Origin: Apus apus
Lineage: Eukaryota > Chordata > Aves > Apodiformes > Apodidae
Direction: 5' to 3'
Assembly: GCF_020740795.1 (NCBI RefSeq)
Contig: NC_067285.1
Location: forward strand, 91,657,152-91,721,151
DNA length: 64,000 nt
In this document: positions 13,136-64,000 of the stretch, one piece after another
Layout of the letters: each line of letters begins with the position of its first letter
How positions within the stretch are numbered: position 1 is the stretch's first letter
Position numbers and translations under genes: made by a program
Notes under the pieces: model-generated
Database searches by the model: none
The model's input: only the letters and a program-made list of their open reading frames with translations
What the model was told of the DNA's origin: nothing

Positions 13136-38635
<25,500 letters not shown>

Positions 38636-40380: not shown

Positions 40381-40999
40381 ATTTTGTGTAAGTCTATAGA
40401 ATAATGTACATTTGTGGCTTTAGCTGCCTGCTTATCTAATTTGAACGTAGATCAGCTGCTTGAAGAACAGCATTTCGGATCAGTGAAGAAACATAGATAA
40501 ACAAATAAGCACTTGGTGCTACTTACATTGCTTAGCTTACACTATAGCTTAATTATGTTTAGAACATATGCATTTAACAATCAGAATCTATACATCTGCC
40601 ACTTGCATTTGCAATTTTCTATTACTAACATAGGAAATACTACAAAACGTGTCAGTGAAGGTAAATGTGGCCATTGCTTTAACAGTACTCACTGTGTGAT
40701 GGGCAGCACCACCCAAAGAAAAGTTATGTTTCTGTAAACCAAATTCCACCATCAACCATGAGGATCCTCTACTAAAACCTGTACAATCCATACACACGTA
40801 GACAATAATTTTGCATGGGGATTAGATCTGAATAAGAAAATGCAATTTGTAAAGGGTCACACATAAATATGCACACGAATTTTTGCTGGACTGGGTCATT
40901 TTGGGCACCACTCGGGCCAAGGTCCCTGCAGCTGTCTGCTAAGCCTTCCTCACGACAGCAAAGCCTGTAACACCAAGTTACCACATCTGTCAGAAACCA

Positions 41000-42070: not shown

Positions 42071-42615
42071 GCTAATTGTGACCACTTGGACGTGATAACG
42101 TTCATACTGAGGCGTCACAAGTGTAAAGGAGCCTAGTTACTGACCTGGCGTCGATTGTAATTATTTTATCTTTTAAAGTTTAGTCCTCAAAGGGAGCTGC
42201 AGCTAATCACCTCTTGATGTGTGTGGCTGCGGAATTAAGCAACTGAGATTTAGCTTTTCAGATGTCACTTTTCCCCTTCGATATATCTGCGTTTGCAGGA
42301 AATGCCGCTGAAATACACTGGGAGGTGCAACAGACGCTTCCAGTAGGTTGGTGTCAGCGCGGGGCGCCTGCAGCCCTGCCAGATAGCTGCGCTGAAGAGG
42401 GGAGGTTGCAGGCTCTTGCACAACAACCTGTGGTTCTGGTCTCTAATTCCTCATACCTTTTTTGCTTTTTGCCACTTCACTTTAAGGCAAAGCACGCCTT
42501 TTTACTGTGATAAAAGGCAGTTCCACAGTTCGTGATGGCATCCTTTCTATCACTAGTCTTGCCAAAGAAAGAAATACTGTTGCCACAGGAAGCAAAGTGA
42601 TAGGTGTTAAGGGAA

Positions 42616-43777
42616 CAACTACATCTGGCAGAAGAAGAGGCGGACATCATGTACCTGAACTTCTCCAAGGCTTCTGATATGGTCCCCACAGCCTTTTCCT
42701 GGAGAAACTGACTCTTTATGGCCTTGACAAGGAGTCTGTGCAGTGGGAGGGGAATAGGCTGACAGACCATACCCAGAGGGTGACAGCTGGCAACTGGTCA
42801 CAGATGGGGTCCCCGAGGGATCAATCTTGGGCCCAATGCTGTTAAACTTCTTTGTAAGTGACCTGGATGTTGGGATCAAGAGCACCCTGTTGAAGTTTGC
42901 TGATGACACCAAGATTAGTGGAGAGGCTGACACTCCAGAAGGGAGAGGCACGCTCCAGGATGACCTAGACAGACTGGAGGAGAGGGCTAAGAGAAACCTT
43001 GTGAAGTTCAACAGAGAGAAGTGTAAGGTCTTGCACCTGGGAACAAATAACCCAGGAGCGCAGTTCAGACTGGGATCCAACTGGATGGAGGGCAGCCCTA
43101 TGGAAAGGGACCTGGGGTGTTGGTGGATAAAAGGCTCACCATGAGTGAACAGTGTGCTGCAGTGGCAAAGAAAGCCAAGAAGATGCTGGGCTGGATCAAC
43201 AAGGGCATCACCAGAAGATATAAAGAAGTCATTATCCCACTCTACTCAGCACTTGTCAGACCACACCTGGAGTACTGCATTCAGTTTTGATCCCTGTTCT
43301 ACAAAAAGCATGCAGACAGGCTGGAGAGGGTCCAGAGAAGGGCCACAAGGATGATCAGAGGACTGGAGGACCCGCCATATATGAGGAGAGGCTGAGAAAA
43401 CTGGGTTTGTTCAGCGTTGAGAAAAGAAGACTTTGGGGAGACCTTTTTACAATGTTCCTGTACTTAAAGGGTGGCCACCAAGAAGATGGAGACTCCCTAT
43501 TGACAAGGAGTCACATGGAAATGACAAGGTGTAATGGGCACAAGTTGCTCCTGGGGAGATTCTGGTTGGACACAAGAGGTAAATTTTTCACCATGAGGAC
43601 AATCAAACATTGGAATAGTCTCCCAAGGGAAATGGTGGATTCCCTCACATTGGACAGTTTTAAGTCTCAGCTTGACAGGGTGTTGAGCCATCTCATACAA
43701 ATTATAGTAGTACCTAGAAAGATTGGACCAGATGATCCTTGAGGTCCTTTCAAACCTGGCTTTCTGTGATTCTATGA
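42616..43777 (+). mobile_element. CR1 LINE, 5'-truncated, with dead reverse-transcriptase remnants
   Basis: About 1.16 kb in sense orientation. Conceptual frames show CR1 RT landmarks: YLNFSKASD near 42650, LGPMLLNFFVSDLD near 42827 and the catalytic-type FADDTKISGEAD near 42900. The conserved C-terminal part, YEERLRKLGLFSVEKRRLWG (about 43380), and HWNSLPREMVDS follow. The parts sit in different frames with stops between them, so the copy is inactive. It ends in the CR1 3' tail TTTCTGTGATTCTATGA. Confidence 0.95.
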
Positions 43778-46700
43778 GCTGGAGGACTCAGACTTTGCCA
43801 GGGGCCAGCTCACAGTCACTTTGGTAGGAGCAAGGTCTTACCTTATGATTACATTGTATCCTAAAGGTGGATAGCAAAGTTCTTCCAGCTAAGGGCATGC
43901 AGTGGTGAGGTTTGTATGTAAAAACATTGTAAGGTGTCATTTGGAAACCAGATGTGAATACTCTTGTCTATATTGACAGAAACTGAGAAAGAATCATAGA
44001 GTACCATCATAAAGCTCACTGGCATAACAGCAGAGAATACGAATTGGCCATATTCTCTTGCTTACTACTTGTCCTGTCTTTCCCTTCCTTCTTTGGATGA
44101 CCTGTTTTCACTAGAAGCTGAGAAATTAAATATGATGTACAGAATAAGCTTAAAATGAAAAAGTAATCTTTAAAGTAATTTTTAAGATATTTCTTCTGCT
44201 TCCTGAATCGTTGTAGTGCTGAATCACTGAAATGTTAAATCATGAATGTGTTATGGTATGTTAACCCAGATTAATAGATCAGAGTGTGGCAGTTCAGCTA
44301 AGATGGAATTTCTGACCAACATTACACAGAAATAAAGAGAGTCTGGTTTATGTCTTTTTCAGGACAATAACCCAAGTGTTTGGGCATTCAGTACCAAAGT
44401 TGCTGCTCTGTTTTAATTGAAAAAAAGAAAAAAAAAAAAAAAGACCCCACCCACTGTTTCCATGTCTACTGTTTAACCCAATCACAACACTACTGAAACA
44501 GGAGAGAGAAATTATTTTTCCATTCCCATTAAACAGAAACTTAAATTAGACAAACAGTACTTTTTGAAACCAGCCCTGATAAGAACTCAGCAACTAAATT
44601 GTTATAGCTAACTGGAAAAAAAATCAGAACAATGAATATAGACTGAAAGTAATTACTAAGTTCAAAGAGGAAGATGTTTGAATTTCAGTATAAACCTTGC
44701 TCAAAAGAAGTACTTATTTTCATATTAATTTGATGAAGACAGAAAGTTGGTTAAAGGATTACTTTTTCCCCTGCTCAATCTATTGCAAAGCATGAAAACA
44801 CACAGTTCAATAATAATTAAATAATGAGGAAATTACAGTAATGCTGGATGAGGGAAATACATCTGGAGGAAACCAATTGCCATTTCATAAACTGTCAGTA
44901 GATGGCACAAACATTTAAGAACATTTAAAAGTCTGGGCGTTTCTAAACACAGTAGGATAGAGTTACAGGAAGTTTTTGTCTTTTCCTGAGTACTTTTTCT
45001 GCTTTTTCGAAGAGCAGGGATTTCTGGTAAGAAACTTTTCACTTTATGGATTTTATGCAGTTGCTGGTTTGCTAAAACTGTTTTCTATCCTGCATCTTAT
45101 TTGCAAATGAGCCATGTTTTCCATAGAGGGTTACTAGCAAGTGTATGATGTACTTTCAAATGGGTAAGAAATGAGAGTAAAGTTGCTTATGTTCAATAAA
45201 TTTATACAAGAAGCTGGCCAAATAGCAGTCTCTTTATATTAGCACTGCACCCATAATAAGGGGGTGATTTAACAGGATGTTTTTTCTGCGGTTCAGGGAT
45301 GGATCTAACTTGATGGTACTTCTAAGAAAGATGTATTTTTAACATTTGAGTTTTGTATTATGCTGATAACTTGCAAAGTGCATGCCTTAATACTGAGCTA
45401 TCATAGCTCAATGCTTTCTGTACATTTCTTACATTAAAGTTTAGTCAGTTTATATGGAGATTATATTTGAAAAACTTTAAAACATCAATTTTTATCTTTT
45501 CTCTTGCTCTTTTACAATTTCTTGCTGTGATCTTGGTTTGCTTACCCTGCTGGATGGCTTCTCTGCTAATATCTTGATAGTATGCTTTTTGTCAAATTTG
45601 AAGTCCTGAGGATACTTCTGAATTAAAAGGGATATGACTACAAAGGATAATTTCTACAGTGTTAGCTCCCAAATGATGAGTCCAGTATTGTAACAGTTAC
45701 AGTTACAGTTGTTAATTTTGTTGGATAGGGTATTCTATAGAAAGTTTTAAGGTACTTGTAAATAATTTGATGGAAATGCCAGGATATAACAATGAGAAAA
45801 AAAATCAGGCCTATGTAGAAGACCAGATCTTTTTTTGTCTAGTCCCTGAATATTGCTACAATTTTGTTCTAAGAGGTAATAGTTATTTGAAGATAGATCT
45901 TTTTTCTCAGATTTCTCTTGAAGCTACATATTTTGTTTATTATGCACATTAGTAGTGTTGCCCAAACAACTGGAAGAACAAGATAGAGGGTGCTGATTAT
46001 CTTTTGTTCTCTGCATAAGCCCAAATGCTTTTTGAGGTCTATGATGGTAAAGCTGCATATAATTTTTCCAAGTCAAAATCTGGAAAAAAGCTGGAAAAGT
46101 TTTGCCATATTGTCCCACTAGTTCTAGCTGATTTCCAAGCCTAGTTTGATGCATTCTTTCAAATTTTTTAGTGTTGTACTGCTGAGATTTCATAAGATAT
46201 ATTGTGTTAGATCAAGGAGAATGTACATTTTAGATCCAGTAATGTAGCTCTAAGAAGGCTTGCAGAATGGTTAATGGTACAGAAGATGTACTTGTTGAGG
46301 TTGCAGGTTTAGTCCAACAAGGGACAGGCATTACTGTCTCATTGTAAAGTCACTAGAAATATAAACTCACAGTTTGGCCATTTCAATATTAAGGTAAAAC
46401 TGAAAGCCTGTACAGTCATGGATAAGCACTATGGAAAGCTTTAGACAACAACTACTATTTAAAAGTAGTGGGAAGAAGAGGGGAAGAATGTTCGAAAGAA
46501 ACAAAAAAAACCCAAATAATTCAGAAATCTGAAAAACAAATTTAATTCAAGATTTACACATATTAAAAATGTTAGCTAAGTTCTTACCAGTTCCTCTTTC
46601 AGAAAGGCAGTCTAATGGATTTACGGCAATATCTAAAAGGAGATGTAAGGAAGTGTTCACAGTGACTGACTTATGGGAAGGCTGGCTGCCATAAAGTCCT

Positions 46701-47593
46701 GCATTCAGAAAGGAAGTGTGTTCTTCATCAAGGAAAACAGAAGTAAAACCACAATTATGTTTTTTTTCTAAATAGTGTTTGAAAAAGCCTCTCATTCACA
46801 ACAGAGACATTTGACGTTAATCTCTTTAGATCAGGGCTAGATTTTGTGCACAGAGGTCCTACAACTGGTATTTTTTGTGTAGAATACAAGTATTTTCAGT
46901 GTGTGTTTGGTGTTCTCTATGTGCACCTAGCAAATCAGATATAGGGACATATCACTTTCAGAGTCTAAATTCAGGATATGCTCAAGCCCAGACAAGAAGT
47001 GAACTCTTCTGTGGACTTCCTCATAACATGAATATAGAACATCCCACCCCCTGCCATGGTCTCCCCAGTTAAATAAGCACTAACAACCAGTCACAGCTAC
47101 CTAAAGACATTCAGATTTTGATTCACTGTTTTGAACCTCCATCCCATGTTTCAGTCGAGGTTTTGTAGCCACCAGTCTATTCTGAATCTGGTTCATATCC
47201 TTCAAGAGAGAACCTGAGGAGATGTGAGGAGATGATGACCATACTGACCTCAGATACTGTACTTTCTGATCAAAGTGTATTATATAGTTGTGGGAGGCCT
47301 TCATACTACATTGAATCACAGCAGTAATTGTGTAAGTAAGCAGCAAATTTTAGTCACCTAGGAAATCAGACATGATTCGTAAGTAACAGCCTCATTATAT
47401 ATTAAATACAGCATATTTGCCCAATAGAAATTTTGGTAATGTTCTCTTAATTAATAATGCCTTCATTGCTTTCTGAGTCAAAGGGAGAGATGAGAAGTTT
47501 GAACCTTAACAATTCAATCTCTGTGATGGTTCCTGCATAGCCACTTAATGATATAATGTTTTTTTGTTGTTTTGTTTGTTTGTTTTGCTACAG
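43778..47593. other. Region upstream of TLR1B, non-coding
   Basis: AT-rich DNA with an A homopolymer near 44430-44445. It should contain the promoter and 5' UTR exon or exons of TLR1B, because the TLR1B coding exon is preceded by a 3' splice site. One candidate exon is listed separately. No other gene is recognised; frames such as 45924-46193 (-) look random. Confidence 0.5.
44950..45026 (+). other. TLR1B: Candidate 5' UTR exon of TLR1B
   Basis: A consensus donor, TTTCTG followed by GTAAGA, starts at 45027. About 60 nt upstream is an Ets/PU.1-type element, ACAGGAAGTTT (about 44966), a class of site common in TATA-less myeloid promoters. It lies 2.6 kb before the TLR1B coding exon. This is inference from two short motifs. 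Confidence 0.25.
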
Positions 47594-47657
47594 GATTAAA
47601 ACAAAGATGGACAGATAAGAGAAGTATTGAGCCATCTGCAGGGAACCAGAAACCAGT
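47594..47657 (+). other. TLR1B: TLR1B 5' UTR part of the coding exon
   Basis: A long T-rich tract and GCTACAG (AG at 47592-47593) form a strong 3' splice site, followed by 64 nt of leader before ATG. This shows that the gene has at least one upstream non-coding exon. Confidence 0.75.
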
Positions 47658-49619
47658 ATGACAAAAAATAAGAGATCTCTTAGAAACTTTTTTATTTACA
47701 AGTGTCTGTTTGTATTAACTCTTTGGAACAATGTCAGTCTGACTGTGGAAAATGAACTCTTTATATCTGTTTCTAATGACTTTCCAGAAGATGGTTCTGA
47801 CAAAAAAATTAAGACCCTGCCACTCCTGTATACAAATACTCATCAGTCCAAAGCTAATTTTGACTGGGTTGTGATACAAAATACTACAGAAAGCCTGTCA
47901 TTGTCAGAAATCACAAATGATAATGTAAAACAATTAGTAGCTTTGTTATCTAATTTCGGACAAGGCTCCAGGTTACAAAATCTGACACTGACAAATGTGT
48001 TAGTGGACTGGAAGTATCTTATTGAAATTTTTCAGACTGTATGGCACTCATCCATTCAATACTTTAATATGAAAAATGTAACACAATTGTCTGACGTTGA
48101 AAGTTGTCGTTTTGACTATGCAGGTACCTCTTTGAAAGCATTGACATTGAAGAAAATTTTAATCACAGATCTGTACTTCACACAAGATGACTTGTACAGA
48201 ATATTTGCAGACATGAATATTGCAGCCTTGACAATAGCTGAATCAGAGATGATACACATGCTGTGTCCTTCATCTGAAAGTCCTTTTAGATACTTGAATT
48301 TTTTAAAGAATGATTTAACAGATCTTCTTTTTCAAAAATGTGACAAGTTAACTCAACTGGAAACGTTAATCTTACAGAAGAATAAATTTGAGACCCTTTC
48401 CAAGGTAAGCTTCATGACCAGCCATATGAGATCACTGAAATATCTGGACATGAGCAGCAACTTGCTGAGTCACGATGGAGCTGATGTGCAGTGCCAATGG
48501 GCTGAGTCTCTGGCAGAGTTGGACCTGTCCTCAAATCTGTTGTCAGATTCCGTGTTTGAGTGCTTGCCAGTCAACATCCAAAAACTCGACCTACGACAGA
48601 ATCAGATCACCAGTGTCCCCAGGGGGATGGCTGAGCTGAAGTCCTTGAAAGAGCTGAACCTGGCGTCCAACAGGCTGGCTGACCTGCCGGTGTGCAGTGG
48701 CTTTAGGTCCCTGGAGTTCCTGAACATAGAGATGAATTTGATCCTCACCCCACCCGCTGACTTCTTCCAGAGCTGCCCGCGGGTCAGGGAGCTACAAGCT
48801 GGGCGCAACCCGTTCAAGTGCTCCTGTGAACTGCAGGACTTCATCCGCATGGAGAGGCAGTCCGGGGGGAAGCTGTTTGGCTGGCCGGCAGCCTACGTGT
48901 GCGAGTACCCGGAGGACCTGCGGGGAAGGCAGCTGAAGGACTTCCACCTGAGCGAGCTGGCTTGCAACACAACGCTCCTGCTGGTGACAGCTCTGGGGCT
49001 GACGCTGGTGCTGGTGGCTGCCGTGGCCTTTCTGTGCATCTCCCTGGACGTGCCGTGGTACGTGCGTATGACGTGGCGGTGGACGCAGACGAAGCGGAGA
49101 GCTTGGCACAACCACCCCGCGGAGCAGGAGGCCGCGCTGCAGTTCCACGCCTTCATTTCCTACAGCGAGCGCGACGCGTTGTGGGTGAAGAACGAGCTGA
49201 TGCCAAACCTGGAGAAAGGGGAGGGCTGTGTACAGCTGTGCCAGCACGAGAGGAACTTTGTCCCCGGCAGGAGCATCGTGGAGAACATCATTAACTGCAT
49301 TGAGAAGAGCTACAAGTCGATCTTTGTCTTGTCTCCCAACTTTGTGCAGAGCGAGTGGTGTCACTATGAGCTGTACTTTGCCCATCACAAATTATTTAGC
49401 GAGAATTCCAACAGCTTGATCCTCATCTTGCTGGAGCCGATCCCTCCGTATGTTATCCCTGCCAGGTATCACAAGCTGAAGGCTCTCATGGCAAAGCGAA
49501 CCTACCTGGAGTGGCCCAAGGAGAGGAGCAAGCGGCCCCTCTTCTGGGCTAATCTGAGGGCAGCTATTAGCATTAACTTGCCAATGTGTGATGGAAGGAG
49601 GTGTGAGGAAACAGATTAA
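47658..49619 (+). CDS. TLR1B: Toll-like receptor 1 family member B (short form), 653 aa
   Basis: Type I membrane pattern-recognition receptor, expected to pair with TLR2 for bacterial lipopeptides and signal through MyD88. The layout is: signal peptide about 1-30; short ectodomain with diverged LRRs; recognisable LRRs from about 200 (YLNFLKNDLTDL, LILQKNKFETL, YLDMSSNLLSH, ELDLSSNLLSD, KLDLRQNQITSV, ELNLASNRLADL); LRRCT about 383-436 with CSC and two further Cys; transmembrane helix about 438-460; TIR about 494-640. The TIR has box 1 FHAFISYS (496-503), BB loop RNFVPGRS with the key Pro at 536, and box 3 LFWANLRAAI. It lacks about 150 N-terminal residues present in TLR1A (LRRNT and first LRRs). 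This matches chicken TLR1B (about 655 aa), so it is the normal short paralogue, not a fresh truncation. Codons 240-642 are almost base-identical to TLR1A. The tail after TIR is a private MCDGRRCEETD. Confidence 0.95.
   Translation: MTKNKRSLRNFFIYKCLFVLTLWNNVSLTVENELFISVSNDFPEDGSDKKIKTLPLLYTNTHQSKANFDWVVIQNTTESLSLSEITNDNVKQLVALLSNFGQGSRLQNLTLTNVLVDWKYLIEIFQTVWHSSIQYFNMKNVTQLSDVESCRFDYAGTSLKALTLKKILITDLYFTQDDLYRIFADMNIAALTIAESEMIHMLCPSSESPFRYLNFLKNDLTDLLFQKCDKLTQLETLILQKNKFETLSKVSFMTSHMRSLKYLDMSSNLLSHDGADVQCQWAESLAELDLSSNLLSDSVFECLPVNIQKLDLRQNQITSVPRGMAELKSLKELNLASNRLADLPVCSGFRSLEFLNIEMNLILTPPADFFQSCPRVRELQAGRNPFKCSCELQDFIRMERQSGGKLFGWPAAYVCEYPEDLRGRQLKDFHLSELACNTTLLLVTALGLTLVLVAAVAFLCISLDVPWYVRMTWRWTQTKRRAWHNHPAEQEAALQFHAFISYSERDALWVKNELMPNLEKGEGCVQLCQHERNFVPGRSIVENIINCIEKSYKSIFVLSPNFVQSEWCHYELYFAHHKLFSENSNSLILILLEPIPPYVIPARYHKLKALMAKRTYLEWPKERSKRPLFWANLRAAISINLPMCDGRRCEETD
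48375..49585 (+). repeat. Gene-conversion tract, copy in TLR1B
   Basis: 1,211 bp aligned without gaps to 58988-60198 (constant offset 10,613). The only difference found by eye is C at 49541 versus T at 60154, a synonymous Leu codon change. Immediately outside, the sequences differ (CTTA versus TTTTG before; GTGTGATG versus ATCCTTTG after). Confidence 0.95.
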
Positions 49620-49661
49620 GAATGTCTCTCATGGAGTTTCTTCTGTTTTTCTTGGTGAAAC

Positions 49662-49667
49662 AATAAA
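49662..49667 (+). promoter_or_regulatory. TLR1B: TLR1B poly(A) signal
   Basis: AATAAA begins 43 nt after the TAA stop (49617-49619), followed by a GT/T-rich stretch (GGTTGTCAATGTATGTAATGT). This predicts an unusually short 3' UTR of about 60-70 nt. Confidence 0.6.
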
Positions 49668-52600
49668 CATCTATTATTTCCATTGGTTGTCAATGTATGT
49701 AATGTTTTGTTACAGAGCCTTGTTTCTACCTAGTTTTCTATGCTTCCTCCTAACTGTACGCAAAATTCAACTCGCAACTGGAACTCTCTTGAGATTGATA
49801 CAGAGATAGCAAATCACTAATAAGTTTGGATGTGGATTTTGAAATACAGCTTGAAATACTATAGTGAATTTTTCTCAGCAGAACAAAATCTGGAGCAGTT
49901 GGTACAGTCATGTGGCAGAATGCTTGAGCTGCTGGAGAGCTTGCAGAGCTGCATTACTCACAAGGCTTATGCAGCTTGGTCATAGGATCTGTTTTGCTAA
50001 AATGAGTTTGCAAGTAAGAAAATTATGCATCCTGATATGTATAGGAGTCCAGAGTTTGAGATGGTTTCTGAGTAGTGTTTTCTCAGATTCAGTGAAGCTT
50101 AAAAGGATAGGACCCAGGTACAGGACTTTGTAAACATCCAGCACAGGTGGACAAAAATGACCATGCCACAAGAGAGGCCTGAGTGAGGAAGAAAAGTTTG
50201 GGGTTATTCTTCTTTCTAAAAAAAAAAAGGAAAATAATTTAAAAAAAAAAGAGAGGAAAGATAAGCTACTTCACCTTTAGGGGCTCATAGTTTGGCAGTG
50301 CTGTGAGGGGGAAGCAGTGGCTTGACAATTAGAATTCTAATTCCTATCCCCTGGTAGAGTCCCTGTACCATTTTGATCCTGAGTGGTACCCTGACTAAAG
50401 GGACTGAGAGGGTGTCTGTCTGCAGTGACATCTGGAACAAGTCTGTCAGCCTTCATCATCAACTGGCTGTATCTTGAGAAACTCTTGACTTCTCTGCTTC
50501 ATGCTTTCCCCACTCCCCCCCCTCCTTTTTTTTTTTCTTCTCACCCATAGATGTTATTTTTGCTTATTATTAAAAAAAATCTGTCCTTTTCAGCCAAAAC
50601 AGTATATTTTGCAGCATAGCTATGAGTTCTGATAAGAAAGGCAATAGCCAGTCAGAGGCTGAAAATTTTTGCCAATCTTGGGACAACAGGTAAGAACCTG
50701 TATTCATGGATTAAGAAAGAAAAGCTATATTTACAATATTTTCTCTCCTTTATGGAAGTACAGCTGGTACCTCTACATGTACTTGTGGTATTTTGCCTTC
50801 AAGAAAACATGGCTGGGCTCTGACAGACATTCACAAGTGCTGAAGAGGATCACAGCAAATTTTGTCCTCAGAAGGGGAGGTGTTTGCCATCTGGAATACC
50901 AGACTTAGATGACCAGCAAGCAGGAAGTTTTCCTTCCAAAAATATGTTTTGACATGAATATGAGAGAAGTAGGGATGTCAAGATGAAATCCTCATTTAGT
51001 ATGGAATGATTTACATTTTATCTCATTCTTGTCTTTCATTATGGTTAACAAAATATATTATTTTTTTTTTCTTGAAGTCTAAGCAGGCTGAGGTCTCTTG
51101 ATTTGAAGTCTTGAAGTCTGAGCCCCTGTTTAATGATTGTAGGGAAAAGGTCAAATTTAACACCTTTAGCTTTCTCATCCCACTTAGCCTCAAAATTTAC
51201 ATAGCACAAGTATTACCAAATTGCAGGCATTTCCTTCAGAACTGCAGAAATAAATGTTTTCTGTGCTTCTTCCTTCCTCTCCAACTAATGCTTCAGTGAC
51301 TGATTCATTTAACCCTTTGAAAACTGAAGATGAACAGACTTGACTTGGTCTGCCTGTCCCTTTCACAAAACCAGGGACAGATGGATTGTTACATGGTGTC
51401 TTGAGTGAAAATTTTCTTCAAATGCCCCAGAGTTTTAGGTTAGCAGCTCTGGAAACTTTTGTAATACAGTTAAACCCCTGTTGTGTGTGAAGTTTAAGAA
51501 CTCATATGTATTCTGTTGGCTGGAGGAAAGAGAAACCCTCTGAAATTGAGAGAGTGCACCAGGAATCCTTCCTGTTACTGAGGTGGGAGTCCATGGCTGC
51601 TGCCAGAAATTAATTATTTCTTTCAGGAGAAGAAGTTGTTAGCAGGGGGTTGCTTGGAAAGAACTTGGAAACTATACGGCCTTTGGCAATGTAACTAATG
51701 TGATCATAAGCAGAAATACATAATTATGGGTTTCTGGTATAAGTCCAAAATCCTGTTGTGAATTATATTGGAAAGGGAGGCTTCTAATGAGCATGGGGAT
51801 AAATTAAAACTTGTACTTTGGAACTAGAAGCCCACATACTATTAGATTTTTGTCCATGCTATGTGCCAGGTAATTGACTAAAGAGGTACACATACAGTGA
51901 GTTACTGGATCTAGTTTCTCAGATTTCACAGGAGAGAATGAGTTTCTCAAGGGATGCATATCAGAGTATTTCAAACAATTATTTTAGCCTCTGCCATACT
52001 GTGAGCACTTCCTATGAAAGCACTTTTGTCCAGGAAGAATTTTTTCCCATGCATGGGGCCATGTCTTAGTCTCAACACCCTGTATCAGCCACTTTACCTG
52101 CACACTTTGGAAAGTAGCTGCCCTTTTCTGTGCACATGGTGATGTGAGTCAGCAATTAGTCCTGCACTGAATGCTGTATGCACTCTATGTGTTGGGAAAA
52201 GGGAGTGTGTAAATATATTCTGATGTCAGATACCATATCAGAACAGATTCCTGGCATTTGACTAGTCATCTTGGTGACTAGCAGAAATGCTGTTTTTACA
52301 TAGATAATAATATCAACATAGCAAACTGATAACATGGGGGTTAAACACCCTCCAAGACATAGAAAATGTGCAGAAAGAAGTGAAAGTGTGAAGGTTTTTA
52401 GGTATATTTAACAAGTGTGTAGCATAAAGGAAACCGAATCGCAAAATAATGCGAGTCCTGACACAATGTGGGTTGCCCTGCTGAGAGCTAGTCTTTAGTT
52501 TTTTAGATTTAGAAATGTTACAAAGCATCAGCACTGAAGCACAGTTGCAGAGGGTTACATCAGGGAAAAGAACAGGACTCCATGTTAGGTGAGACAGTCT

Positions 52601-53628
52601 GCTGAGAGGACAGTTCAAAACTCCTGTGAAACTTGTGTTTTTACTCAGGGATTTAGTTTGGCTGTTTTTTCTTTCAGAAAGACCAAGATTGACTATAATT
52701 TTCATTTGTAGCCATTGTTCAGGCAGGAGGAAGGACTATTGCTAAACCAATAAATGCAAAAGTTCTGTGTTCTGCAAGGTGTTTCTGTCTTACCAGTTGG
52801 ATCTCCACAGCTTTGTTCCTTGTGTCTATTTATGCTGAAGTAAACTAAACTTGGGCATAAGTCCAAACAACCTCTGCTCACTTTGACTTGGAGTGGCGTT
52901 CAGTAGTCATTTTGCCTGCTTGACAGAGAACATTACGTTGTGACAACGAGAGTTGCAGTTGAAGATAAGGTCTTCAAGATGACCAAACACAAGGCTTTGC
53001 ACCCTTTAATAACTGCATTAACTTTTCATGCGTGCTTGGATGAGTCCATCTGCTCTGGCTATGTTTTAACTCCGTGTTTCACACAGAAGTTCTGCTCTGC
53101 AGTTCTAGTTGGAGAGATTCTTCACACTTTGGGCATAGTGCTGGTCCTGAACAGCTTCTGATGCAGTTCCTCTCTGAGTAGGTAAGGCAGAAGTGTGAAA
53201 TGTACCTTGAGGAAAGGCTATTTATAAAGTTAGATGGTCTTTGATAGTATCAGCTCCAAAAAACCCCAGCAGTATAAACTTCAGAAAAGGAACAAGGTGT
53301 CTGTGTGAGTGAATGCATGTTGAGTATGGAAGGGATGGCATTTAGCAGGTATATTCAGGAGGCATAAACAGAAATGCACTGCTATCATGCAAAACAGTTA
53401 GCAGACCAAAACCAGTCCCAAACACAGTTTTCCTGAGCTGGTTGCTAAAAATATAATTATTCAATGTTTCTAATGATTTATCAGAGGTAGTCAGGTGTAT
53501 CGGTTTTATCATAACTAGTTGCAAATTATTATTTTTTTTTAATGGAAAACTGCATATTTGAGTGTATTTTAAAGGCTCATTAAGAAGGGTAGTAAGTAAA
53601 TTAAATACACTACACCTAAAGTTGCAGA

Positions 53629-53778
53629 TGTCCCCCCTCTGGAAGTGTTCAAGGCCAGGCTGGAGCAGGCTTTGAGCAGATTGGTCTAGTGGGACGTGTC
53701 CCTGCCAATGCAGGGGGGTTTCAGCTAGGTGATCTCTAAGGTCCCTTCCAACCCAAACCATTCTGTGATTCTGTGATA
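53629..53778 (+). mobile_element. CR1 LINE 3' fragment
   Basis: It contains GGAAGTGTTCAAGGCCAGGC, CCTGCCAATGCAGGGGGGTT and TCCCTTCCAACCCAAACCAT and ends ATTCTGTGATTCTGTGAT. It is sense-oriented and about 150 bp. Confidence 0.94.
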
Positions 53779-54852
53779 AAGGTGATACTTTTGCTTTTTA
53801 CAACTGTATACACACTGGAGTCAGTTCTGACAAAAGCTGATGTATTTGATTATATCCATGCAGCAAAGCTTTTTCATGGATTATATTGGAAGTAAAACTG
53901 CTGCTGATCAGTGTAATTTAGTTCTCAATTTGATTGTGATATTATTGTTCTGTCAACAAGCGCAGTAGTCTGTTAATTTTCATGGATTAAAGCTCAGCAT
54001 TGCAAACTTTGTCCTTATCTTGAAGACAAGACAGGATCAGCTGACAACCAGACTCCTGCTGCTTATTGTGAAACATTCATGAACCCCAGTCTTGTGGATC
54101 ACAGATGTCTCAGAGTTTTCTGTAACGTATTACTCATAATTTGCTGCACTGAGGAAAGAGTAGTTTCAGTTCAGTTTCAATTCAGACTTACTTATGAATC
54201 TCAAGATGGAGCTCAGAGATTTTCTTTCAGCAAAGCAAAGGGTTAAATTCTTCTTTACAAAATTGAAAAGGCAATTGCAAAATAAAAGTTTCAAAGGGAT
54301 CTCATGGAAGCCTGAAATACAGCTGGCACTGCTGTCTAGAATAAATTTTCATACTTCTCAGCTTCTTTAGCTGAATCCCTTCTTGCCTTCCACTCTCCTC
54401 CAAGGCGCTGTTTTACGTCATGGAGTAAACTCTAGTCTGAGTCCAGAGTGGGCCCAGGTGCCCCCTCTCCCCCTAGCTTGCTCATACTTGAAGAATTGTT
54501 GCATACTTCATTAATTTAATATTAAAATTAATTAAGATTAAATACATCTTCATGTATTCATCTCTTTCTTCCATGCTACTTATTGTTACTGAAACATGTT
54601 GTATTAGTTGGGAGGCTTATGGGAGCCAGGTGTTGGTTTTGCTTGTTTACATCTGCCTTTGCAATGCACTCGCTCTCTGCTCTGTTGACTTGCTTGCTAG
54701 GCCCTTGAACCTGTTCAAGACATGAATTGAACAGCTGCTTTATTTGATTCATCCATTCCCAGACTGACCTATATTGCTGTGTTCTTTACAGCTTTCATGT
54801 CATTACAGATATTCTATCTAGTTAATTTCTAATTTTTTTTTAAGGAAGCTAC

Positions 54853-55206
54853 ATAGAATCATAGAATGATTTGGGTTGGAAGGGACCTTGCAGATCACCT
54901 AGTTCCAACCCCCCTGCATGAGCAGAGACACCTCCCACTAGATCAGGTTGCTCCAAGCCCCATCCAACCTGGCCTTGAACACTCCCAGGGATGGGGCTTC
55001 CACATCTTCCCTGGGCAACGTGTTCCAGTGCCTCACCACCCTCACACTGAAGAATTTCTTCCTAATGTCTAACGTAAATCTCCCCTCTTCCAGTTTTGAT
55101 CCATTACCCCTTGTCCTCTGCCTCCAAGCCCTTGTAAAAAGTCTCTCCCCAGCTTTCCTGTAGCCCCCTTGATGCACTGGAATGCCACTATGAGGTCTCC
55201 CTTGAG
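54853..55206 (-). mobile_element. CR1 LINE 3' fragment, about 350 bp
   Basis: The plus strand starts ATAGAATCATAGAATGATTT and continues GGGTTGGAAGGGACCTTGCA, with GGCCTTGAACACTCCCAGGG. This is the reverse complement of a CR1 tail. The open frames across it (54866-55072 + and 54938-55177 -) are element-derived. Confidence 0.94.
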
Positions 55207-57726
55207 CTACAATGTTGGGTATCCATGATAGCCTTCTGAGGCATCTCTAGTGTAAAAATGACTGACTTGTAAGGTTTTGAACTGTACTGGTTTGCCCATG
55301 TAAAAGCACAGTAGCTTCGATAGCTTTTGCTATCTGTCAGTGTGCTGCATTAATTAGTCTGCTTTCTGAGGAAAATAACTTAGTGGGGTAGAGCTCTGCA
55401 AGAGACTTTTCTGTGAAGAGATGTTAGTGGTGAGGGTTCTGCTTCCTCCTTTCTGTGTGTGTGCAAAAAAGAGGAGATGCAGTTGATGAATTTCTAGAAC
55501 ATCTGTGTAACCAAAAGAAGCAGACATGACATTTGAAATGCAGAATTATTTAAATGATCTTGCCTTGGTGAATATTCTGTACCGTGGATAGTTTTATTTC
55601 TTCCAGCACAGCACAGGTATGTGAATTTTATAGAAGTAAATGTATTTCAAATTTAGACTGTTAAAAGTTTTGTTTCGTTTTGTTCTTAATACCAACATTG
55701 TAGGGAAATTAAATTGATTCTTAAAATTATCTATCCTATATAATTCAACCCTGTTCTTTCTACTTCCTGAGGTAGTGATTATTAAGGAATTAGCATCTCA
55801 TATGAGACTCCCCAGCTTGAAGTTTACATATGTTTGAAATTCGGTTTGGAGTTAGCTGAGTATGCAGAGGACTTTTGCTGTTTCTTCGATCAGAGCTGAA
55901 TTCTGAGCACAAAAGGTGGGTTATATCTGCTTGATTATTTACATTCTTTTCTTTTTATTATATGTATTTTGGACTCCATCAAATCTCAGGTGTTGGTGTT
56001 TCTTCACTGATGGAAGATACTCTTGCATTTTGAAATTTCAGTGAAAATGCTCATCAGTATTTTGAATTTCAACAAAGAAGAAAGGAAAAAAATGTTGGGT
56101 ACAGCGATTTCCATTCTCAGCCAAGTCTGAGAGGGGTAACTGTTGGTCCTTAATATTGCTTTGCTAGACATATCTGCTTCATTGTTTGACTGTGATCTAA
56201 GTGCTATTCAGCACAGATCATCCCTTCTTGCAGTGTATAGCATAGAATGAACAGTAAGTTAAAACTCATCTGACAATGGAACATGGACCATTGTTTTTTA
56301 TTCCCTTCAGAAAATTTCTTGCTTTGTGCCTGGCTCCACCTTTGCCCGGGGGAAGTGCCTCTAGATAGTTCCACTATCTTTACTGATTTATTCATTTATT
56401 TGTTTTGGTGATGTTAGTTACACATATTTTGGCTTATTTGAAAGGAAACTTGACTAAGCTTGGTAGGAGACTTGGAAGGGAAGGGATGAGTTTTGATATC
56501 AGTCAATCAAATTATTGGGGACTAACACATGTTATAACCTAGAACTGAAAAAGTAGTGCTTTTGGTTTTTATTTAACAAAAGGTCACATGGGCAGAATTT
56601 TAAAACTTTGTTTATTTTTCAAACACAATCAGCAGGGGAAAAATATTGGGCCTGTTGATGAGTTGCTTATACTTCATTTTTCTCTGTGTTGTGTTAAATG
56701 CTTGATGACGAGCGAGTAGTCCTTTTTGGTGGCAGAACTGATGCCTCTCCAAATCCACCTAGGCTATTGATAGACATGACTATATATTAATTCTACTGGA
56801 CCATTTTCCATATCCACAAAATCTTTCTGTTCTTGGGATTTTTGATCCTTAGATCTAACTAGATTAATTGTCCTCCACTCTTTCTAGAGAGGTTCTTGTC
56901 AACTGTGGGATAATTTGAAAAATGCAGGAAATTTTCAAGGGCACCTAGGAGATCCTTGGAAAGGACACTTTGGAAGCATCAAGTGTTTTCTTTCGGATTT
57001 TGGGTACCACTGCTTCATACCTAGTGCCCAGTTATGCTGAGATTTTCCTGTTAGTGTGCTTTTGGACAGACTGGCATCACAATATAATTCCTCCTCAAGC
57101 TTCGTGGCTTACTGGAAAAATGGACCCAAATGTCTCTGCGTTATAGCAAAGACAAAGCTGGTCAGCTTCTCTGACCAGCTGACCCTGAGGGAGTGCAAGG
57201 TGGTGTCCCAGCTCTTTGGAGCATAAAGCTCTACTCTTTGGAGTGAGGAAAATCCTTTGGCTGTTCTGAGTGAAGAGGCAGCTTTTGTACTGGTTCCTGT
57301 GAGGAGTCCTTGGGGCTTTTTTATTCTGTCCCCAGATGTGTGTGGACATGGGGTGTAGGGAAATAACAGATGGAAGGCTTCTTGTGCTCTCCTTTACTCC
57401 TAAATGTACCAATGTCTGTTTGTACCAGTTTTGTATTTTCGAGACTGTTGAGAAAGTTGTATTTCTTAACATCTCTGTATTTTTTTTTTTGCAAATTAGT
57501 GGTTGTATTCCTCCCATTATGAAGGAATTAATTTCTACTTAACTGAGAAAACTAATAATTAGAATGGAAGAATGGGGGCAAGGAGGATTGATAAGAACTT
57601 AGAGCGAGTATGAAAAAATAAAATTTTTATATTACATAGATCTTGTATTTATTTTTATTATAGAAATAAAAAGCAAATTCAACAATACAACAATTTTGAC
57701 AAATCCCATGTGTTTTCTTTTCATAG

Positions 57727-57814
57727 GGCTGGACTCATCGCTGAGACATATTGAACAAGAAACAAATAAATGCTTCTGTGTTTCTGTAAAAAAACAAGAT
57801 AAGACACAAGCATA
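57727..57814 (+). other. TLR1A: TLR1A 5' UTR part of the coding exon
   Basis: TTTCTTTTCATAG (AG at 57725-57726) is a good 3' splice site, followed by 88 nt of leader before ATG at 57815. Upstream non-coding exons are therefore expected. Confidence 0.75.
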
Positions 57815-60286
57815 ATGAGACTCCTTACAAATATCTATGCCTTTGCTTGTGTCTTTATATTCATGTTATGGGATAATATCCAGCCAACTGTGGAAAATGA
57901 ATTTATTGCGAATTATTCAAGCAGTTTGCTAACTAATGTTCCCAAAAACATCCCAGTCCATACACATGTATTAGACTTATCATATAATAGGATCTCTGGA
58001 CTTAGTGTCTCAGAATTTATTTATCTTTCCGACCTTCAAGTATTAAATCTTTCTCATAATCTAATTACAGAGTTTGACTTTAATGTCTTAACTTTTAATG
58101 AAGATTTAGAATACTTAGATTTATCTCATAATAACATTTTGAAAGTTTATTGTCAGACTCTTGTATATCTTAGACATTTAGATCTTTCTTTCAATAAGTT
58201 TACTGTGCTGCCCATCTGTCAGGAATTCGGGAACATGTTCCATTTGAAGTATCTAGGATTAAGTGCCACAGTGATACAAAAGTCAGACTTCAGGTATATC
58301 ATACATTTGCAGCTGTACACTGTCCTCCTAACCTTAGAAAACTTTTCTCTCTATGAGCCTCAGAGTCTGACAACCTTGAACACAAGGAGCCTCCACATTG
58401 TTTTTGCAGCAAACCAAAACTTCAGTTTTGCCCTCTTGTATGATGGAATGAGCACTGCGGAAGACTTAAAAATAGTTAACTTGAGATATAACTTGAGCTA
58501 CAAAGATTTCCCTTCTCCTCCTTTAATGCTTCTGAAGAAAATCAAGACAACAGCCCTCATGCTTGACACTGTAGACTTACAATGGGCTATCATTTTGCAA
58601 ATTTTTCTACTTATTTGGTATTCACCTGTGGAGCACTTGACTGTGAAAAATTTGACTTTTCGGGGGCCACTAGGGGTGATGAATGAATATGATTTTCTAC
58701 CCTTGTTTAGCTCTTTGGAACAATTAATCTCTTTGGACAACTCCATGACAGCACTAACATTGGAGCACGTTCGTAATAAGGTTTATTCTTTCAACCAGGA
58801 GATTCTATACAGACAGTTTTCAGAGATGAATATTGCCAGTTTGACAATATATGATGCATATATGCCTCACATGCTTTGCCCCAATAGAACAAGCTCATTT
58901 CAGCATCTAAATTTTTCTCACAATGCCCTGACAGATGCATTGTTCCAGAATTGTGGCACACTGACAAATCTGAAATTACTTATTTTGCAGAAGAATAAAT
59001 TTGAGACCCTTTCCAAGGTAAGCTTCATGACCAGCCATATGAGATCACTGAAATATCTGGACATGAGCAGCAACTTGCTGAGTCACGATGGAGCTGATGT
59101 GCAGTGCCAATGGGCTGAGTCTCTGGCAGAGTTGGACCTGTCCTCAAATCTGTTGTCAGATTCCGTGTTTGAGTGCTTGCCAGTCAACATCCAAAAACTC
59201 GACCTACGACAGAATCAGATCACCAGTGTCCCCAGGGGGATGGCTGAGCTGAAGTCCTTGAAAGAGCTGAACCTGGCGTCCAACAGGCTGGCTGACCTGC
59301 CGGTGTGCAGTGGCTTTAGGTCCCTGGAGTTCCTGAACATAGAGATGAATTTGATCCTCACCCCACCCGCTGACTTCTTCCAGAGCTGCCCGCGGGTCAG
59401 GGAGCTACAAGCTGGGCGCAACCCGTTCAAGTGCTCCTGTGAACTGCAGGACTTCATCCGCATGGAGAGGCAGTCCGGGGGGAAGCTGTTTGGCTGGCCG
59501 GCAGCCTACGTGTGCGAGTACCCGGAGGACCTGCGGGGAAGGCAGCTGAAGGACTTCCACCTGAGCGAGCTGGCTTGCAACACAACGCTCCTGCTGGTGA
59601 CAGCTCTGGGGCTGACGCTGGTGCTGGTGGCTGCCGTGGCCTTTCTGTGCATCTCCCTGGACGTGCCGTGGTACGTGCGTATGACGTGGCGGTGGACGCA
59701 GACGAAGCGGAGAGCTTGGCACAACCACCCCGCGGAGCAGGAGGCCGCGCTGCAGTTCCACGCCTTCATTTCCTACAGCGAGCGCGACGCGTTGTGGGTG
59801 AAGAACGAGCTGATGCCAAACCTGGAGAAAGGGGAGGGCTGTGTACAGCTGTGCCAGCACGAGAGGAACTTTGTCCCCGGCAGGAGCATCGTGGAGAACA
59901 TCATTAACTGCATTGAGAAGAGCTACAAGTCGATCTTTGTCTTGTCTCCCAACTTTGTGCAGAGCGAGTGGTGTCACTATGAGCTGTACTTTGCCCATCA
60001 CAAATTATTTAGCGAGAATTCCAACAGCTTGATCCTCATCTTGCTGGAGCCGATCCCTCCGTATGTTATCCCTGCCAGGTATCACAAGCTGAAGGCTCTC
60101 ATGGCAAAGCGAACCTACCTGGAGTGGCCCAAGGAGAGGAGCAAGCGGCCCCTTTTCTGGGCTAATCTGAGGGCAGCTATTAGCATTAACTTGCCAATAT
60201 CCTTTGAAGAAAATGATGAGCAGAGTGATGTTACTTCTACTAGTAGTGTAGGTCAGTATGTGAATGACTTGAGTGTCTTGCATTAA
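57815..60286 (+). CDS. TLR1A: Toll-like receptor 1 family member A (long form), 823 aa
   Basis: Full-length TLR1/6/10-family receptor, expected at the cell surface as a TLR2 partner that recognises bacterial lipoproteins and signals through MyD88. The layout is: signal peptide about 1-24; LRRNT-like start; N-terminal LRRs (VLDLSYNRISGL, VLNLSHNLITEF, YLDLSHNNILKV, HLDLSFNKFTVL); diverged central LRRs about 150-370, where the lipopeptide pocket lies in mammalian TLR1; C-terminal LRRs about 370-530; LRRCT about 535-588; transmembrane helix about 590-612; TIR about 646-792. The TIR has FHAFISYS, BB-loop Pro at about 688 and LFWANLRAAI. Codons 392-794 are almost base-identical to TLR1B. The C-terminal tail after TIR (ISFEENDEQSDVTS and on to DLSVLH) is about 28 aa, acidic and Ser/Thr-rich, unlike TLR1B. 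Length is close to chicken TLR1A (about 818 aa). The coding region is one exon, as usual for the family. Confidence 0.96.
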   Translation: MRLLTNIYAFACVFIFMLWDNIQPTVENEFIANYSSSLLTNVPKNIPVHTHVLDLSYNRISGLSVSEFIYLSDLQVLNLSHNLITEFDFNVLTFNEDLEYLDLSHNNILKVYCQTLVYLRHLDLSFNKFTVLPICQEFGNMFHLKYLGLSATVIQKSDFRYIIHLQLYTVLLTLENFSLYEPQSLTTLNTRSLHIVFAANQNFSFALLYDGMSTAEDLKIVNLRYNLSYKDFPSPPLMLLKKIKTTALMLDTVDLQWAIILQIFLLIWYSPVEHLTVKNLTFRGPLGVMNEYDFLPLFSSLEQLISLDNSMTALTLEHVRNKVYSFNQEILYRQFSEMNIASLTIYDAYMPHMLCPNRTSSFQHLNFSHNALTDALFQNCGTLTNLKLLILQKNKFETLSKVSFMTSHMRSLKYLDMSSNLLSHDGADVQCQWAESLAELDLSSNLLSDSVFECLPVNIQKLDLRQNQITSVPRGMAELKSLKELNLASNRLADLPVCSGFRSLEFLNIEMNLILTPPADFFQSCPRVRELQAGRNPFKCSCELQDFIRMERQSGGKLFGWPAAYVCEYPEDLRGRQLKDFHLSELACNTTLLLVTALGLTLVLVAAVAFLCISLDVPWYVRMTWRWTQTKRRAWHNHPAEQEAALQFHAFISYSERDALWVKNELMPNLEKGEGCVQLCQHERNFVPGRSIVENIINCIEKSYKSIFVLSPNFVQSEWCHYELYFAHHKLFSENSNSLILILLEPIPPYVIPARYHKLKALMAKRTYLEWPKERSKRPLFWANLRAAISINLPISFEENDEQSDVTSTSSVGQYVNDLSVLH
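58988..60198 (+). repeat. Gene-conversion tract, copy in TLR1A
   Basis: Partner of 48375-49585: same orientation, gap-free, one synonymous difference (60154). It begins inside the LRR containing QKNKFETLSKV and ends two bases into the codon after NLP at the end of the TIR domain. Confidence 0.95.
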
Positions 60287-60520
60287 ATTGTGTTAATGAC
60301 ATTTGTATTGTTTCTTACACTATTCCTTGTTTATAGCAAAATGTGTGATACATACAAATATTGCTTGTTCTAGCCATGAAATAGTCTGAAGTCTTTTGTG
60401 TTTGCCCATTATCAACAGAGGGAAGGAGAGAGAAATTTCTATTGTGATTAGACTGATTTTTGAAGACTTGGGTTGCCTTTATTTTGGACTTTTCCATGGG
60501 TTATGGCCATATTCGAAAGC

Positions 60521-60526
60521 AATAAA
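60521..60526 (+). promoter_or_regulatory. TLR1A: TLR1A poly(A) signal
   Basis: AATAAA lies 235 nt after the TAA stop (60284-60286), followed by G/T-rich sequence (GTAGTGGTAGGTT). It is the first canonical signal downstream. Confidence 0.55.
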
Positions 60527-63500
60527 AGTAGTGGTAGGTTCAATGTCATCAGGACTGATAAGGCATGCATTTGGTCCTTGTTGTGACATGGATGTTTTGT
60601 TGTTAAGGTGGAAGGGATGTGATTCTTGGGTTTAATTAAATAATATGAATTAATTCATTAATATGAAGAAGAAAACTCTTTTTATAACCTTTCCCGGTCA
60701 CTAAGGGTACAGTATCCCTACATGTTCAGACCACACTGGGGTTTGTTATGAGTTTGTTTTCCCCTCTTGGGAGTCTTTCTCTTCATCACATACACTTTTC
60801 TGGGTAAAATCTGAAAGTTGGAGCCATTAACCCTTTTAATATTCTTCTTCCTTTGCTGTAGTAAACATTTCCATCTGTCTTGATTGACCTACCAAATAAT
60901 GGTTTTATATAATTCACTTTTCCCTACCTTCAGAATAATAGTTAATACCTGAACTTATGAAATATTTAATAGTATTATCACTACTTTCTGCTATGATCAT
61001 ACCAAGCTATATTGGGTTGCTTGTTTTTTCCATTTTCTAAAATGCAGTTACATATTTCAATATAATGTTTCTTATTATGAGCTCTTTCAACTGTAAGAAG
61101 GCAAAGAAAAAATCAGATGCCTCAATCTACTACCATCTCATTACAAAAATTTTCCGCAGTTGTGCTACTGTAACTCTTCTGTTAAATTAGAAAATGTATT
61201 TTATTGCTATCTCTCTGCAGTAGCTAATAAGTAACCTACATTATAATGTAGTTTTATAGGTATTTAGAATATGTTTTACATAATAATAATGGGAAAACCC
61301 CTCATATTTATAGAAAATTAGCAATGCTGCAAATGAACTGTGGGAAACAGAACTTGCACAACCGATGAGAAAGCGTGATTTTACCAGAACTGTTGCTGAA
61401 TTAAGTAATTTATTAAGTATTTAAACTCAGAAGCTTGATGTTTGTAGGCAAATCCCCTTTCATCTCCAGATTTTCACTGAATTCTGTTACCTTGCTCTTT
61501 TATTAGCAGGCTCTGAAGGTCAATGTGCAGGTGAAAAAGGAGTAATTTTCCTTGAGAAATAACTTGTTTGCTAAAATCAAACTAATTAAACTAATGGTAT
61601 TTGTTGATAGGGGACTTCTTATAATTTGCTGTGTTTGGATTTAATTTGACAATCTAACGAAATTCTCGGTTTTTATCTGTTACTAAATTTCACTGGTGCT
61701 GAGGAGTTGTGTAGTTGTACTCCCTGCTGAATGCCAACACGGGGTCTCTGCAGGCAGCCGGGAATGGCACGGGAGGTGACTGGCCAGGCAGGAGATGTGA
61801 TCCTTGCCACTCGCCCAGGCAGCTGGCCCGGTGCCTGCCAGGCCTGTGTGGTAGCAGCCAGATGAAGCAGTGGACTGGCAGATATGGGACAGCTTCCTGG
61901 TGGCCAGAGGTGCTGAGACACTGCTGTGCACCCACCTGCCAGCTCAGGTTAACTGGGTATCCCAGTAGGATGCTAGATGCCTCCTCTACTTGCTGGTCTT
62001 TGGAAAGAAGGGCTAAAAATCTCTATTAATTCTTAATTTCAGGTGAAAGGAAGTTGGCTACTGACTTGATAGTGCATAACTGAGGTCTCCCTCTTTCCAA
62101 AGCCAGGACCAAGCTTTTATTACAAAGGACTGATAAACTCTGTTTCCACAGAAGTAGTGATGTTAAATCTGGGGCTGCAGCCTGAACGCACCACTGGAGA
62201 TGTGGCATTTCCTTCTTAACAGGTTTTTCCCAACTGTACAGCACCTCTCTGGATGCAGGTTCTTCACTACCTCTGGAACATCACTGCCTGCTCTTACTTG
62301 TCTGGTTAAGGTTTAGTGGGTTCTTTATTTCAGCCACAGCCAGAGTTACATCTGTCCATAATTTAAGACTCATGCTATACAGCTCTTAGGTACTTCAGGA
62401 ACTGTTCAGTGGCAGAGGCCAGTGCACATTAAGCTGGCTAGGAGTTTTGTAGCCTTTATCTCTCCAGGGCTCCTGTGCTTTACAGTGGAGAACACTACCA
62501 GAAAACCTGTGCCTCTCCTTCCTAAACACTTCTCTCCTTCCCAAGCATTACAGTCTAAGGACACAACTACCATTCAAACTTAGTGGTAACGTTTTAATGG
62601 GCACAAATTCTGTCCTGTTTACCAGACAAGAAAAAGGAAGTAAAATTTCTCAAGTCAGGCTTTCCGGTTGCTGTAAATGTGACACATCAGCAAGCTGGGT
62701 TTTTTGTCCTAAATGAAGTTCAGAGTCTGGGCTGTGGAAGAGTCCCTCACCTTTTAGACTGTTCTGAAACCTAATTTGTAGGTAGGTGTGAAAAAAATAT
62801 TTTGGTTTCTGCAGTCTGCCAAGTATATTAATTTTCTATATTAACCCTGTAGCACCCCTTTATACTCAATCCTTCCGACCTCAAAAATCTTTCAGGCACA
62901 AGTATTTTAGTTATTTACATACAGTTAAGTACTCTGTGGCCGCTCCAAAGTGTACTTGTGAGTTCCTTTGATAAAGCAGATTCCTTTATTTATTTATTTA
63001 TTAAAAGTTAGCATTTATCATTTCTCATAACTACTCTGTTGGAACTTCCATTTCGTTCTTCCCTGAGGCTGTTTCTGTTCAGAGGGTACATAAAATATTG
63101 ATTATATTTTGGTTTTACCCAATGTATCAAATTATCTTTTTCACAGGTTTTTATGAGGCAATGCTCTATTGAAGATTCTTTTTTAAAAAATTATTTTATA
63201 GAGGTTTTTCTCGAGGAAAAGTTTTCAGGACTTACAGGACATGACTATCTCATTGAACTCTTGAGGTACTGTCATGCTTATGTCCATATTATAAAAATGA
63301 CATCAGGTGCTCCTCTCACTGAGCTCACAGGCCTGGAAGCACACAAGAAAGCAACATTTTCTATCAACTTTTTTGCTTTTTGGCCCGAGTTTTAATCAGA
63401 GAAGACATGTTCAATGTGTTTTTATGGCTAAAAATTGCAGTAAAGACACATAGTTAAGTCTTGAATCCTTGAGTAGATTTCTGTGCTTGACAGGATCTGA

Positions 63501-64000
63501 CTCAGTGATAAAAGGTGAGATAGCGGGAATAGCCTCATTTCTTTACTGTGAGAAAATAAATAATTTCTTTACAGTCTTGTAAAGGTAACAATTTTCTCAG
63601 ACCAAGGATGACACCCAGTGGCCGATTAAATTATTGGTGACTCCTAAAAATGAGCACTCATGCTATAGAAATGATGCGTTTTGCCTCTTGGGAAAATGGA
63701 AATTAACAATTACATTGGCCCAGTGAATGTTGGAGCCTCTTACAGGTGTGTGTGGGTGAGAGAAGACAGGTCAGGATAAGCCCTTCCTCCTGGCAGCTCC
63801 TGCACTGGGCCAGGGGCTGTGGCTCGGACCCGTACTCCATTGGTCCCTCCTGCCAAGTGGCTGTGGAGTGCAGACACTGACTGGGTTGCTAACAAATGAA
63901 CCTTAGACATCAACACCATGATGTGAGCACTGACTCTTGCTTTGCAATGACTGGTCCTTATGTGCAGGCAGGAGGGCAAGATATACAAGCTGGTGATTTT
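60527..64000. other. Downstream intergenic region, no gene recognised
   Basis: Mostly AT-rich non-coding DNA. A local GC-richer patch at about 61690-61960 has three overlapping minus-strand frames of about 81 codons with no recognisable domain. A frame at 63153-63395 (+) of 80 codons is also unrecognised. Mammalian synteny would place KLF3 further in this direction, but nothing of it is visible. Confidence 0.5.
62986..63001 (+). repeat. (TTTA)n microsatellite
   Basis: About four TTTA/ATTT units in a row. Simple sequence, no function visible. Confidence 0.8.

Follow-up and report, generated by a model that had tools for sequence, protein, structure and literature searches.

The 3' halves of two adjacent TLR1 genes of Apus apus, avian TLR1B (copy 1) and TLR1A (copy 2), agree at all but one of 1,211 positions, and we assign a probability of roughly 0.92 to the reading that ectopic (interlocus) gene conversion keeps these halves alike. 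Both genes lie in the window, i.e. the whole stretch of 64,000 nucleotides that was analysed. Gene conversion had been named as the best explanation in the original prediction, and this is borne out by the identity at silent sites, by the saturated flank and by the lack of any other flank similarity. Conversion of this gene pair is already known and has been published for four bird species (Huang et al. 2011, PMC3125219). The analysis suggests one addition to the published picture of avian TLR1 conversion, namely a step in third-position GC content (GC3). The pair represents a clear case of concerted evolution, in which the signalling halves are kept identical while the sensing halves diverge. 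The features on which the following account is based are:

47658..49619, plus strand: CDS of copy 1, avian TLR1B / TLR1LB type, 653 aa, short ectodomain; open frame with first ATG at 47658; Pfam LRR, LRRCT and TIR
47658..48374, plus strand: unconverted ectodomain of copy 1; 233 codons aligned with copy 2; GC3 78/239
48375..49585, plus strand: homogenised tract of copy 1; 1,210/1,211 identical to 58988-60198; GC3 312/403 codons
48894..48965, plus strand: LRRCT of copy 1; Pfam PF01463, residues 413-436
49149..49577, plus strand: TIR domain of copy 1; Pfam PF01582, residues 498-640
49541..49541, plus strand: the only tract difference, C versus T at 60154; synonymous Leu
49586..49619, plus strand: unconverted tail of copy 1; compared with the copy 2 tail, 60199-60286
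57815..60286, plus strand: CDS of copy 2, avian TLR1A / TLR1LA type, 823 aa, full ectodomain; open frame with first ATG at 57815; Pfam LRR, LRRCT and TIR
57815..58987, plus strand: unconverted ectodomain of copy 2; same 233-codon comparison; GC3 154/391
58988..60198, plus strand: homogenised tract of copy 2; 1,210/1,211 identical to 48375-49585; GC3 311/403 codons
59507..59578, plus strand: LRRCT of copy 2; Pfam PF01463, residues 565-588, same as copy 1
59762..60229, plus strand: TIR domain of copy 2; Pfam PF01582, residues 650-805

The two CDSs, 1,962 and 2,472 nt long, have the same orientation and start 10,157 bp apart. Pfam LRR_8, LRRCT and TIR are found in both copies, in agreement with the earlier domain description (C-terminal LRRs, LRRCT, TIR), and the transmembrane segment was read by eye only. 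The best PDB matches of copy 2 are the TLR1 and TLR6 ectodomains (as hybrids) and the TLR1 TIR domain, while the N-terminal part of copy 1 matches TLR1 best; the matched TLR1 entries are presumably human. In chicken, the CDSs of TLR1LB and TLR1LA comprise 1,959 and 2,457 nt and start 10,472 apart by coordinates; TLR1LB is entered there as 722 aa, at odds with its own CDS length in the same table (PMC2275738). CDS lengths and start-to-start spacing thus agree with the chicken genes, whose strand is absent from the available passages of that source, and this identifies copy 1 as avian TLR1B and copy 2 as avian TLR1A. The pair consists of old avian tandem paralogues.

Direct comparison of 48375-49585 with 58988-60198 gives 1,210 identical positions out of 1,211 without any indel, as originally reported. 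The sole mismatch (49541 C, 60154 T) changes a Leu codon from CTC to CTT and is synonymous; it lies 44 bp short of the 3' edge and is preceded by 1,166 identical bases, counted from the 5' edge. The bases adjoining both ends differ between the copies, so that the edges of the tract are exact and the sharp bounds described before are confirmed. A protein-guided alignment of the two CDSs comprises 1,941 aligned nucleotides with 354 differences, and its longest stretch without a mismatch has 1,166 nt. The maximum in 10,000 shuffles of 354 differences over 1,941 positions was 73 nt; the observed length was reached in 0/10,000 shuffles, with an upper bound of about 10^-165, and a chance origin of the tract identity is excluded. 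Among aligned codons for the same residue (Met and Trp left out), 41/471 differ, and up to 370 identical codons occur in a row. The tract has a pS of 0.004 and a pN of 0 over its 403 codons, of which 402 are identical with their silent positions included, compared with 52/92 conserved-residue codons before the tract.

The flanks present a different picture. The 233 aligned codons before the tract have 39.5% amino acid identity, 51.9% nucleotide identity, and a saturated pS of 0.76; the last 66 of the aligned codons have 57.6% amino acid identity at a pS of 0.86. A blastn comparison of 43500-52000 with 52001-64000 (E 1e-3) returns a single match, 48195-49585 with 58808-60198, which is thus carried upstream of the tract to 48195/58808. 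In the same search, no inter-copy similarity was detectable in the 3' tails, UTRs and intergenic DNA. The coding tails 3' of the tract comprise 34 nt in copy 1 and 88 nt in copy 2, with 17 differences in 31 aligned nucleotides. The claim that the sequences on both sides are strongly diverged thus holds, including for the 3' tails and UTRs, which lack detectable similarity, but the 5' flank, with 58% amino acid identity in its last 66 codons, is homologous though strongly diverged, rather than unrelated. Identity at silent sites between locus-specific flanks points to non-reciprocal copying, and therefore to ectopic gene conversion.

This is further supported by the mosaic relation of the two copies to human TLR1. 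Of the 134 residues aligned before the boundary, copy 1 has 62 in common with human TLR1 and 55 with copy 2, and copy 2 has 51 in common with the human protein; only copy 2 has a 12-residue insertion there. Across the LRR part of the tract, 99/99 residues are the same in both copies, and each copy is identical to human TLR1 at 46/99. In the TIR part, the copies agree at 149/150 residues, the mismatch being the codon at the 3' edge of the tract, and each is identical to human TLR1 at 123/146. Such a change of relationship at the boundary is a property of ectopic conversion, unlike recent duplication. Published trees place TLR1B beside mammalian TLR1/6 and TLR1A beside TLR10, at bootstraps of 750 and 657 of 1,000 (PMC3125219). 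The contrast of 62 versus 55 is modest and has the same direction as these trees; the comparison made here covers the unconverted part against human TLR1 only. The separate trees for ectodomain and tract that had been proposed as a check were thus realised in a three-sequence form with human TLR1 only, with the predicted direction, and the four-bird trees are the published ones (PMC3125219).

The composition of the coding sequence changes near the 5' conversion boundary. GC3 is 0.33 in copy 1 (78/239 codons) and 0.39 in copy 2 (154/391) before the tract versus 0.77 inside (312/403 and 311/403; Fisher p 3e-29 and 1e-27). The step persists when only LRR codons are compared, within residue ranges set by us (64/190 and 143/363 before versus 126/173 inside; p 9e-14 and 3e-13). 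Fourfold sites have a GC content of 0.30 and 0.32 before the tract versus 0.75 inside, where G (0.47) exceeds C (0.28-0.29), and the observed/expected ratio of CpG is 0.19 in the CDS before the tract and 0.56 inside. In copy 1, the 5' change point of composition falls at 48390 (range 48369-48444). In copy 2 it is less sharp, with a best 5' point at 59216 in a fit with two change points (range within 2 log units 58985-59231) and at 59003 in a fit with one. The 5' edge fits the composition step better than the 3' edge, because the 3' change points fall inside the end of the tract, by 22-46 bp in copy 1 and 25-52 bp in copy 2. As the step lies within the LRR array and away from any domain border, domain-specific codon use is weakened as its cause.

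A known mark of conversion in mosaic genes is a concerted part with raised GC3. Of three mammalian mosaic pairs, DDX19A/B and TUBG1/2 have a significantly higher GC3 in this part than in the divergent one, and in BMP8A/B the difference is not significant (PMC2720389); the pair described here shares the feature with the first two, which are other genes, from mammals. Because GC3 rises abruptly from about 0.35 to 0.77 close to the 5' boundary, within the LRR array, conversion has probably been long-running and GC-biased. We hold at even odds the reading that the step was built up by GC-biased interlocus conversion of avian TLR1, repeated over tens of millions of years. It competes with a step unrelated to conversion, in which GC-rich codon use in the 3' half would be an ancestral or a selected trait that may in turn promote recombination; this alternative is rather unlikely, though to be taken seriously, and opposes only the long-running, GC-biased part of the explanation. 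The two tracts are copies of each other, so that their composition counts as one observation. The higher CpG ratio inside the tract could mark a recombination-prone stretch, and the excess of G over C at fourfold sites is an asymmetry that plain GC bias does not predict and that may stem from codon preference. The position of the step near the conversion boundary and inside the LRR array, where no domain border lies, argues against this alternative, as do two hand-picked minus-strand coding fragments of the window with a GC3 of only 0.33 (112 codons) and 0.38 (53 codons, partly covered by DUF719), the former without a Pfam match and putatively assigned.

If repeated GC-biased conversion has indeed shaped the tract, the converted module and its fixed boundary would be recognisable from base composition alone, and GC drive, instead of selection, may account for some residues of the signalling half that both receptors share. 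A GC step in other birds, if present, would allow conversion over a long time to be told apart from one recent event. No report of GC bias in avian TLR1 was found among the titles and abstract starts listed by a literature search, which is no proof of absence. The terms 'GC content', 'GC3', 'base composition', 'G+C' and 'biased' have no occurrence in the available text of PMC3125219, GC and bias terms have none in that of PMC8788240, and 'GC content' has none in that of PMC2077338. PMC6244663 contains one mention of GC, in a reference on TLR7/TLR9, and the two mentions in PMC2935454 are both about assembly.

Among the alternatives to conversion as such, assembly collapse survives best, although it is improbable. 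In this case, the real 3' halves would differ, and one consensus would have been entered at both places. This is a fair concern, because short-read assemblies of penguins missed TLR1/2 genes in several species, which was blamed on converted regions (PMC8788240), and the identity observed here exceeds short-read length, where short reads fail. The published zebra finch sequences are derived from databases and hence provide no independent check (PMC3125219). The cloned pairs of turkey and duck differ at 26 and 38 sites rather than at one, yet with these differences in about 1.2 kb they are still near-identical (PMC3125219). The window contains no N, and one difference has been retained 44 bp inside the 3' edge. 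Moreover, real differences close enough to a unique flank to be spanned by the same read would be expected to survive a collapse, but none occurs in the first 1,166 bases.

If a TLR1 gene had recently been duplicated, in tandem or in part, this would account for two adjacent copies in the same orientation. Such a duplication is rejected as highly improbable on the combination of silent-site identity in the tract with flank divergence, since the coding flank is saturated at synonymous sites and the non-coding flanks lack similarity; in addition, the ectodomain of copy 1 resembles human TLR1 more than it resembles copy 2, and the chicken genes agree in CDS lengths and spacing. An explanation by purifying selection or convergence that concerns nothing but the TIR module has just as little to recommend it: the domain is conserved, as its identity to human TLR1 indicates, but the identity of the tract codons extends to silent positions, and the LRR part of the tract is invariant between the copies at less than half identity to the human protein. 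Unequal crossing-over alone is rejected by argument, because locus-specific flanks on both sides need two exchanges.

Ectopic gene conversion would proceed from a break in one copy whose repair is templated by the other copy. The tract may stop where the flanking homology is too decayed for heteroduplex formation, and the events would have been repeated and GC-biased over a long time. As a likely consequence, the C-terminal LRRs, the transmembrane segment and the TIR domain stay common to both receptors while the ligand-side LRRs diverge, and a shared signalling half may confer a selective benefit. Avian substitution rates for dating are 1.5-3.3e-9 per site per year. With these, 1 difference in 268.7 synonymous sites corresponds to about 0.6-1.2 My, with upper limits of 3.1-6.9 My. 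The last homogenisation is thus recent, roughly 1 My ago and at most 3 to 7 My ago, a date that hangs on the assumed mutation rate. The duplication of TLR1A and TLR1B has been dated to 147 Mya (PMC2275738) or 359 Mya (PMC3125219), and either of these disputed dates is far older than the tract. Within the 1.2 kb, short reads, SNP calls and expression counts would hardly be assignable to TLR1A or TLR1B, and whole-gene trees of the two are likely to mislead.

The surroundings of the pair comprise several further features. A minus-strand ORF at 27010-27336 has a match to Pfam DUF719 (E 1.4e-10), and a second stretch on this strand, at 38189-38713, is without a Pfam match; the two are probable exon fragments of a minus-strand neighbour gene of the DUF719 family, which we take to be FAM114A1. 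In mammals, FAM114A1 adjoins TLR6. A CpG-island-like stretch at about 40101-43211, in which 1,211-bp windows reach a GC content of 0.735 and a CpG observed/expected ratio of up to 0.98, is placed between the minus-strand gene and copy 1 and is probably the promoter of the former. Dispersed repeats that are about 80-84% alike by blastn occur on both strands at 39849-40191, 53619-53781, 54852-55170 and 18346-18433 and are presumably CR1-like, and an open frame of 172 aa at 43224-43742 resembles, as far as we can judge, the end of a bird retroelement reverse transcriptase. No RNA family was found in the window with Rfam at gathering thresholds, and no stray vertebrate relatives were found in the viral contigs scanned for them.

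A result that speaks against conversion comes from pipits, in which none was found among TLR loci, although only ectodomain fragments were amplified (PMC4737395). Eleven TLR genes are listed for the long-read Hawaiian crow, and TLR1 conversion is unmentioned in the available passages (PMC6115840). Those of PMC3443209 discuss conversion for TLR7 only.

The closest known system is the same gene pair in other birds, for which the same part, from LRR14 to TIR, is converted (PMC3125219). For chicken, turkey, duck and zebra finch, near-constant 5' boundaries and C-terminal trees that group by species have been reported; only the turkey and duck genes were cloned, whereas the chicken and zebra finch sequences come from databases (PMC3125219). 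The 5' boundaries lie at alignment columns 1178, 1178, 1191 and 1187 in the four birds (PMC3125219), similar to CDS position 1174 of copy 2. The zebra finch pair is listed with 1 difference in the tract and 354 in total (PMC3125219), equal to the counts obtained here with a different alignment method, and the agreement at 354 may partly be luck. The near-total identity, put forward originally as the notable point, is therefore already in print, as the zebra finch row shows one difference. The zebra finch fragment spans 1,280 alignment columns (PMC3125219) compared with 1,211 bp here, which gap columns may explain. Avian TLR2A/TLR2B is likewise an avian TLR pair homogenised in the C-terminal half, but it differs in having N-terminal and C-terminal tracts with an unconverted middle (PMC3125219). 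The statement that conversion is established for avian TLR1 genes and for mammalian TLR1/TLR6 is supported by the literature (PMC3125219, PMC2077338). In mammalian TLR1/TLR6, the C-terminal LRRs, the cap, the transmembrane segment and most of the TIR domain are converted with conserved boundaries, and the paralogues are on average just over 96% identical in the tract (Kruithof et al. 2007, PMC2077338). In contrast to the tract described here, the mammalian one starts later (LRR16), covers about 300 aa and ends inside the TIR domain, but it spares the ligand-binding LRR9-12, just as the ligand-side LRRs are spared in the present pair (PMC2077338).
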